From NCBI RefSeq assembly GCF_011742555.1, contig NZ_JAAQQR010000002.1:186001-250000 (forward strand): DNA of 64,000 nt. Reading direction: 5' to 3'. The position numbers and the translations under genes were made by a program. Under the pieces are notes generated by a model. The model was not told the DNA's origin, did no database searches, and was given only the letters and a program-made list of their open reading frames with translations. This document shows positions 27,498 to 28,913 of the stretch, one piece after another (position 1 is the first letter of the stretch; each line of letters begins with the position of its first letter). This DNA is from Luteibacter jiangsuensis. Its GTDB lineage: Bacteria > Pseudomonadota > Gammaproteobacteria > Xanthomonadales > Rhodanobacteraceae.

Positions 27498-28085
27498 TTA
27501 CTTGGCCTTGGCGGCCTTGGTCGCGCGGACCACCTTGGCGGCGGCGACCTTCTTCGAAGCAGCCTTGCGCGGCGAAGCCTTGCGCGTGGCCTTCTTGGCG
27601 GTGGCCTTACGTACGGCCTTCTTCACCGCCTTCTTGGCGGCGACCTTACGGGTGGACGTCTTGCGAGCGCCCTTCTTCGCAGCGGCCTTCTTCGCCGGCG
27701 ACTTGCGGGTAGCAGCCTTACGGGTCGCGACCTTGCGGGTCGAGGCCTTCTTCGCCGGCGACTTGCGGGCGGCGGTCTTCTTCACGGTCGACTTCTTGGT
27801 CGCCTTCTTGGCGGCCGATTTCTTGGCAGTGGATTTCTTGGCAGTGGCCATGGTTCGTCTCAGCTCCTCATCAGTTGGCAGTGGTTGCCCAGTAAAAGCG
27901 TGGAGGAACGCTTCGACCAGCAGGTCGCTGTTCGTAGCGTGCCTCAAATTGTTCACCTGGCGGCGAGTACGTTCATCGGAAAGCAGGCGGAGCACATGCA
28001 GCGGAATCGAGACTGTGATCTTGCGAACCGACCCCGCTTTCGAACCATGCTCCACATACGGCCTGATGAATTTTCCTGTTTCCAT
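27498..28085 (-). CDS. MetJ repressor domain fused to a histone H1-like Lys/Ala tail
   Basis: A 195-aa protein of two unlike parts. Residues 1-78 match the MetJ methionine repressor: [49 protein letters not shown] and [10 protein letters not shown]. This includes the ribbon-helix-helix DNA-binding strand and the AFLHAF segment that lines the S-adenosylmethionine site in E. coli MetJ. Instead of MetJ's last ~28 residues, residues 79-195 are repeats of Ala, Lys, Thr, Arg and Ser ([26 protein letters not shown]), like the bacterial H1 proteins HctB/AlgP. A Met at residue 79, exactly at the junction, could be an internal start. It is divergent in function from its neighbours. Confidence 0.85.
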
Positions 28086-28517: not shown

Positions 28518-28913
28518 TCAGTGATCGTCGCTTTCGGCGACCTCGGCGTACTCGTCCGGCGTGAGCAGATCGTCGAGTTGCGACTTGTCGCTCATCTTCA
28601 GTTTGAAGATCCAGCCCTCGCCGTAGGCGTCCTCGTTGATCGTTTCCGGCTTGTCGCTGAGAGCCGTATTCACCGCGATGACTTCGCCCGACACAGGCGC
28701 ATAGATGTCGGAAGCTGCCTTCACGGATTCGACCACGGCCGTGCCTGCGCCAGCCTCGACCGAGCTGCCCACTTCCGGGAGTTCGACGTAGACCAGGTCG
28801 CCAAGCGACTCCTGCGCATGGTCGGAGATGCCGACGGTCACGCTGCCGTCGCTTTCGACGCGGACCCACTCGTGGGACTTCGCAAACTTCAGATCGCCGG
28901 GGATTTCGCTCAT
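28518..28913 (-). CDS. gcvH: Glycine cleavage system H protein
   Basis: The 131-aa lipoyl carrier shuttles the aminomethyl group between the P, T and L proteins. The lipoylated Lys is in [14 protein letters not shown]. The family blocks KSHEWVRVE and [20 protein letters not shown] are present. It is separated from gcvT by a plus-strand gene for a secreted protein. gcvP is not in the window. It is transcribed alone and ends at a strong terminator. Confidence 0.96.

Follow-up and report, generated by a model that had tools for sequence, protein, structure and literature searches.

The systems closest to the locus described here are the E. coli methionine repressor MetJ, the bacterial H1-like proteins and the methionine regulation reported for Xanthomonadales. 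For E. coli MetJ, we take Lys23 and Thr25 to be the DNA-contact residues, Arg42, Glu59, Ala60 and Phe65 to be the residues of the SAM site, and two tandem copies of AGACGTCT to be the met-box consensus. Among the bacterial H1-like proteins, which we take to be marked by low-complexity Lys/Ala repeats, we also count AlgP from Pseudomonas. For Xanthomonadales, a published survey describes the control of methionine metabolism via SamR, MetR and a SAH-riboswitch, and Table 1 of that survey shows no MetJ in its four genomes of this order (PMC4239095). In Rhodanobacter R12, MetJ, which the authors call a putative repressor, is reported to rise while four methionine enzymes fall, an observation that is a correlation only (PMC12146267).

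We analysed a window of 64,000 nucleotides from Luteibacter jiangsuensis and computed, for one of its genes and its relatives, the junction between two domains, its sequence, its conservation and constraint, the distribution of candidate operators, the synteny and the similarity of leaders. The gene, metJ-h1, is a fused open reading frame of 195 codons plus a stop (27498..28085, minus strand), and all 77 distinct relatives that are not cut share its architecture. An earlier note on this DNA had assigned residues 1-78 (27852..28085, minus strand) to a MetJ core, that is, a ribbon-helix-helix repressor, and this assignment is borne out: the product matches Pfam MetJ (PF01340) with 129 bits against a cut-off of 25 and the NCBIfam MetJ equivalog with 135.9 against 110, and the E. 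coli MetJ chain 1cma aligns to residues 3-88 at an E value of 3.7e-33. From residue 79 onwards there is a tail of 117 residues, up to residue 195 (27498..27851, minus strand, including the stop), which we propose is also translated alone. The same note had called this tail H1-like; it is indeed in frame and rich in Lys, Ala, Arg and Thr, but it scores below the curated cut-offs of both HC2 (PF07382; 24 against 40 bits) and the Burkholderia H1-like family (NF038053; 27.7 against 80 bits), and we therefore use "H1-like" as a name and not as a statement of family membership.

A second MetJ was searched for in the genome and not found, so that the fused frame is its sole MetJ. The window protein has K22 and T24, which correspond to E. 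coli Lys23 and Thr25, and keeps all four SAM-site positions, corresponding to Arg42, Glu59, Ala60 and Phe65. Thus, the suggestion that a normal MetJ might exist elsewhere while the DNA-binding residues had been lost here was tested and did not hold. The best named relative is Luteibacter anthropi, at 94% over residues 1-79, in a comparison from which the own record was possibly excluded. Upstream of metJ-h1 lies gcvH (28518..28913) and downstream a TonB-C gene, all of them on the minus strand; the free H1-like gene of sister families, discussed below, also sits after gcvH. Elsewhere in the window, a beta-lactamase-fold serine hydrolase (Pfam PF00144; 24760-26148, plus strand) has a short Lys/Ala tail of its own at its end, and the genome contains two more Lys/Ala-rich reading frames (L164 and L165), open over 328 and 322 codons.

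MetJ was sought across the order. We use f1 for the Rhodanobacteraceae-type family and f2, f3 and so on for the other family labels of the same order, of which f2 is probably Xanthomonadaceae. MetJ was found in 126 of 298 genomes of the order and, among the matches listed, it occurs in f1, in genus g45 of f9 and in f11; for f2, f3, f4 and f6, no MetJ was among the matches listed in this order-wide search of 298 genomes. Within f1, there is a MetJ match in 193 of 197 genomes and in all 26 of 26 genera, and the fusion occurs in the named relatives Luteibacter, Dyella, Rhodanobacter and Frateuria. The 84 f1 loci yielded 79 distinct core-plus-tail sequences, covering 25 of the 26 genera (genus g20 is not included). 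Two of these, L024 and L076, are truncated by the end of their contig no later than the junction, while the remaining 77 of 79 read past it and all run on in frame as a Lys/Ala tail, so the pairing that the earlier note had seen once extends to 25 of 26 genera. Complete tails that start with Met (n=72) range from 34 to 309 residues, with a median of 95. The MetJ of f9 genus g45, which is Marinicella as judged by an identical protein in the named locus L109, has 90-96 amino acids, and that of f11 has 79-81 and no tail. A class-wide sample gave MetJ in 5 of 282 genomes; two of these belong to f1 and the other three have open frames of 112-118 amino acids, so that this sample says little about tails elsewhere.

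The conservation of the core was then considered residue by residue. T24, E58, A59 and F64 are present in 79 of the 79 distinct f1 sequences and K22 in 78, the exception being a change of Lys22 to Thr. R41 is found in 64 of the 79, with His, Tyr or Glu in the other 15, which are mostly of the Rhodanobacter type; the window protein keeps both Arg41 and Lys22. Rhodanobacter-type cores read SDLRT(H/Y/E)RQ, with E38 and R41 altered together (L058, L059, L065, L068, L069, L070, L306, L311, L312, L313 and L316), and met boxes persist in those searched genomes whose core has this reading. The C-terminal part of MetJ, past about residue 80, is absent from the window protein. We do not take this part as defining, given that the MetJ of f11 is also without it and yet f11 genomes have met boxes.

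To describe the candidate operators, 248 genomes were searched for AGACGTCT twice in tandem with at most two mismatches, and the reversed pattern served as a control. Tandem met boxes were found in 86 of 87 f1 genomes, at 366 sites where the reversed control gave 37, and in five of five f11 genomes, with 3 to 16 sites each; in f2 they were found in 0 of 90 genomes, though the reversed control gave 66 sites there. There are some mismatches between boxes and protein. For instance, the f1 genome G014 has no box, the f9 genome G284 has MetJ and no box, and the f9 genome G270 has two boxes and no MetJ among the matches listed. Single boxes also occur in five MetJ-less genomes (G200, G216, G237, G245 and G279).

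At all 24 of the f1 loci, the best 16-mer upstream of metX agrees with the consensus at 13-16 positions, and TTGACA immediately follows the box in 15 of the 24; genomes in which R41 is changed (G003, G006, G017, G018 and G022) are part of this set. The corresponding regions of f2 and f3 reach 9-10 positions in six of six cases, which is shuffle-like, and none of the six has boxes. In the genome of the window, metX (MetX equivalog, 368 bits against a cut-off of 296) is preceded by three met boxes (G000:C13:122954-122977), and a SAM (S-box) riboswitch lies between these and the gene (L206 2622-2734, minus strand); with up to three mismatches, this genome has 8 tandem places against 2 for the control, at least three of them inside reading frames. 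In addition to L206, the riboswitch was found at metX in 20 of 20 loci examined (17 from f1 and 3 from f2 or f3), a count that leaves out 9 of 30 metX loci. The metX genes of f2 and f3 carry it without met boxes and, since it is common to MetJ-less families, we rejected the riboswitch as an explanation of the boxes.

Met boxes are also found about 165-190 nt before metJ-h1 itself: of 70 regions, 55 match at 12 or more of 16 positions, against a mean of 9.3 for shuffles. A further eleven score 9 to 11 of 16. The remaining four, the Luteibacter-type loci L001, L048, L049 and L053, have no met boxes there, with scores of 8-9 of 16; the genus of the window lies among the groups without met boxes at this place. 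Tandem met boxes were also noticed between divergent cysG-like and cysB-like frames, by our own reading of the frames, at L249 and L237, in one f1 and one Marinicella-like genome. Judged by its sequence and by these boxes, the MetJ half retains the appearance of a methionine repressor, one with a genuine met-box regulon in its family.

Two features had been overlooked in the earlier reading, namely a start codon with a ribosome-binding region within the MetJ codons and a free-standing H1-like gene in MetJ-less sister families. At the junction, Met79 is encoded by an ATG (27849..27851, minus strand) that we propose as a second start, and 12 nt before it lies GAGGAG (27864..27869, minus strand), the proposed Shine-Dalgarno sequence. 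Both follow or fall within a block in which codon choice appears frozen, metJ codons 65-76 (ACT GGG CAA CCA CTG CCA ACT GAT GAG GAG CTG AGA; 27858..27893, minus strand). In f1, ACT, GGG, CCA, GAG GAG and AGA are almost fixed within these last 12 MetJ codons, 76 of 77 distinct sequences have ATG at the junction, and the synonymous difference falls from 0.490 in the preceding 44 codons to 0.137 in these 12 (77 sequences, column permutation p<=2e-5). The conservation extends about 20 nt upstream of GAGGAG. Predicted pairing with the anti-Shine-Dalgarno sequence has a mean of -8.4 kcal/mol at the internal start against -4.4 at the metJ start, being stronger in 76 of 76 cases, and a mean of -1.4 at inner control positions (51 loci).

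Three further comparisons were made on the set without the Rhodanobacter-type SDLRT(H/Y/E)RQ loci: the same 12 codons in tail-less metJ show no drop in synonymous difference (0.554 in 47 enterobacterial or vibrio-type genes, 0.642 in 9 Marinicella-like genes and 0.474 in 5 f11 genes), the distance from GAGGAG to ATG is 12 nt in most fused genes and 9 nt in some genera, and in 45 of 51 loci the internal start is predicted to be more accessible than the mean of the control positions. The window's own internal start is predicted to be less accessible than the control positions (0.33 against 0.38), and the 12-nt spacing is longer than usual for a Shine-Dalgarno sequence, which counts against a second start. 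The exception to the ATG is L307 (genus g7). Its junction codon is GTG, its counterpart of GAGGAG reads GACGAG, and the codons of its block are ordinary ones; in this one case, block and start codon are lost together. At the junction, Rfam gave ten weak matches, all below the gathering score and none covering the block in the coding direction, and a known RNA family at this place was rejected on these grounds.

In the sister families, a free H1-like reading frame beginning with MATKKAAKK or similar lies after gcvH in 14 of 14 f2, 2 of 2 f3, 3 of 4 f4 and 1 of 1 f6 genomes examined; it was not found in the stretches from f5, f8, f9, f10 and f11, most of which covered 1.5 kb on either side. Its leaders were compared with a 27-nt probe from the metJ 3′ end, excluding the Shine-Dalgarno sequence, with 6000 local windows as background and leaving out four f2 leaders nearly identical to L142. 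Seven of the 15 leaders match at p<=1/6001 (two each from f2, f3 and f4 and one from f6), one other does so at p=0.0015, and the remaining seven give 0.045 or worse. Given that an 11-residue segment is common to the fused MetJ and to the tail-less MetJ of f11 and Marinicella, the leader most likely derives from metJ, and not the reverse. In several leaders (L138 and most of those from f2), the former metJ codons and the ATG are in different frames, so that these leaders do not code. A CTGGGC box and a ACTGACGAGGA box, separated by a variable spacer, were seen in leaders L142, L143, L146, L168, L174 and L176, and perhaps amount to more than a Shine-Dalgarno site. A tree of GcvH left the families unresolved and gave no branching order of f1, f2, f3, f4, f6 and f11, and a tree of the flavoprotein-ubiquinone oxidoreductase (L274-L297) likewise left them unresolved, mixing members of f1, f2 and f3, which suggests an exchange of the oxidoreductase gene between families.

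We consider it likely, on the strength of these sequence comparisons, that one gene has two products, the full MetJ-H1 repressor and a free H1-like protein consisting of the tail only. Translation from the first ATG would produce MetJ-H1, which would bind tandem met boxes and repress metX as well as, in the majority of genera, its own promoter; SAM would be its co-repressor, as in E. coli, and the long cationic tail would presumably add non-specific affinity for DNA. From the same mRNA, the ATG at codon 79 would give the tail alone, with the ribosome-binding region lying within the last MetJ codons, and the free tail may act as a nucleoid-type protein of the H1-like kind, possibly compacting DNA. 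Methionine status would in this way be coupled to the nucleoid. The junction appears to be old, as an H1-like gene survives after gcvH in MetJ-less sister families and several of its leaders are recognisable as the metJ 3′ end. We also lean, if only slightly, towards regarding the locus as a nested gene, in which the 3′ coding end of the repressor would double as the leader of a nucleoid protein and from which the sister families would have lost the repressor half and kept the leader. If this is true, the sister families set free a nucleoid protein that had been enclosed in a metabolic repressor and, as the repressor is usually autoregulated, the dose of a chromatin protein would be governed by the level of SAM.

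Other explanations need to be weighed against two products from one gene. It is unlikely, in our judgement, that only the full MetJ-H1 is made, with a tail that raises DNA affinity or bridging and an ATG and GAGGAG that are leftovers of the fusion. The reading frame is open and in frame in all 77 sequences, and the evidence for a repressor requires no second protein; leftovers, however, should not remain frozen at synonymous sites across 25 genera, the lone gene without the ATG, L307, has lost the frozen block too, and the free gene of the sister families uses the same start. We see still less reason to think that the frozen block is mainly some other signal in DNA or mRNA, such as an internal promoter or a site for a protein or a small RNA. 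The conserved 20 nt or so upstream of GAGGAG do exceed what a Shine-Dalgarno sequence needs, and a CTGGGC box and a ACTGACGAGGAG box, variably spaced, are retained in f2 leaders, but no Rfam family covers the block, which directly precedes the ATG and disappears with it in L307, and an internal promoter would still give the short protein.

The two remaining explanations concern the fusion itself, and both can be given very little weight. The earlier note had considered that the core might merely be reused to dimerise an H1-like protein, methionine repression being gone, and it is true that the SAM-site set is partly altered in 15 of 79 sequences and that related members of the order have other methionine regulators (PMC4239095). 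Nevertheless, the boxes at metX are present in all 24 f1 loci, Arg41-change genomes included, and in none of the six MetJ-less controls, and tandem boxes track the MetJ protein across genomes (86 of 87 in f1 against 0 of 90 in f2), so that we rejected this idea as highly improbable. An even smaller chance attaches to a sequencing or assembly artefact joining two genes, which that note had placed near position 27851. Several assemblies do break off within the tail, which is repetitive, but this possibility was tested and rejected, for the identical in-frame junction recurs across many assemblies, in every one of the 77 distinct sequences that are not cut.

The locus presents a repressor whose own codons carry the apparent start signal of a nucleoid-type protein, as well as a traceable case of coding sequence turned into a leader in relatives, and it makes a link between the level of SAM and the dose of a nucleoid protein testable in one gene. 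A MetJ regulon is also documented, from its candidate operators, in a family of an order for which the published survey lists none. We found no description of the fusion or of the internal start in the open-access literature, which was the scope of our search (subscription journals and bioRxiv lie outside it).

In comparison with known systems, the control by SamR, MetR and the SAH-riboswitch shares its order and its pathway with the f1 system, whereas the four Xanthomonadales in the table of that survey are without MetJ and f1 has it (PMC4239095). The bacterial H1-like proteins (HC2, PF07382; Burkholderia, NF038053) resemble the tail in their low-complexity Lys/Ala repeats, but the tail falls under both curated cut-offs and is joined to a sequence-specific repressor. 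The free H1-like gene of f2, f3, f4 and f6 shares with it the place after gcvH, the MATKKAAKK-like start and a related leader, and differs in being without a MetJ core and, for the 90 f2 genomes, without tandem met boxes in the genome. E. coli MetJ (1cma, PF01340) is similar in core sequence, in its DNA-contact residues, in the tandem met-box operator and, for most f1 genera, in having boxes at its own gene. In contrast, a Lys/Ala tail opening with a conserved internal ATG here takes the place of its C-terminal part, and the clear target is metX, the leader of which also bears a SAM riboswitch. The parts are thus of known kinds, and it is the nesting of a repressor and an H1-like gene that appears to be new in the literature searched.
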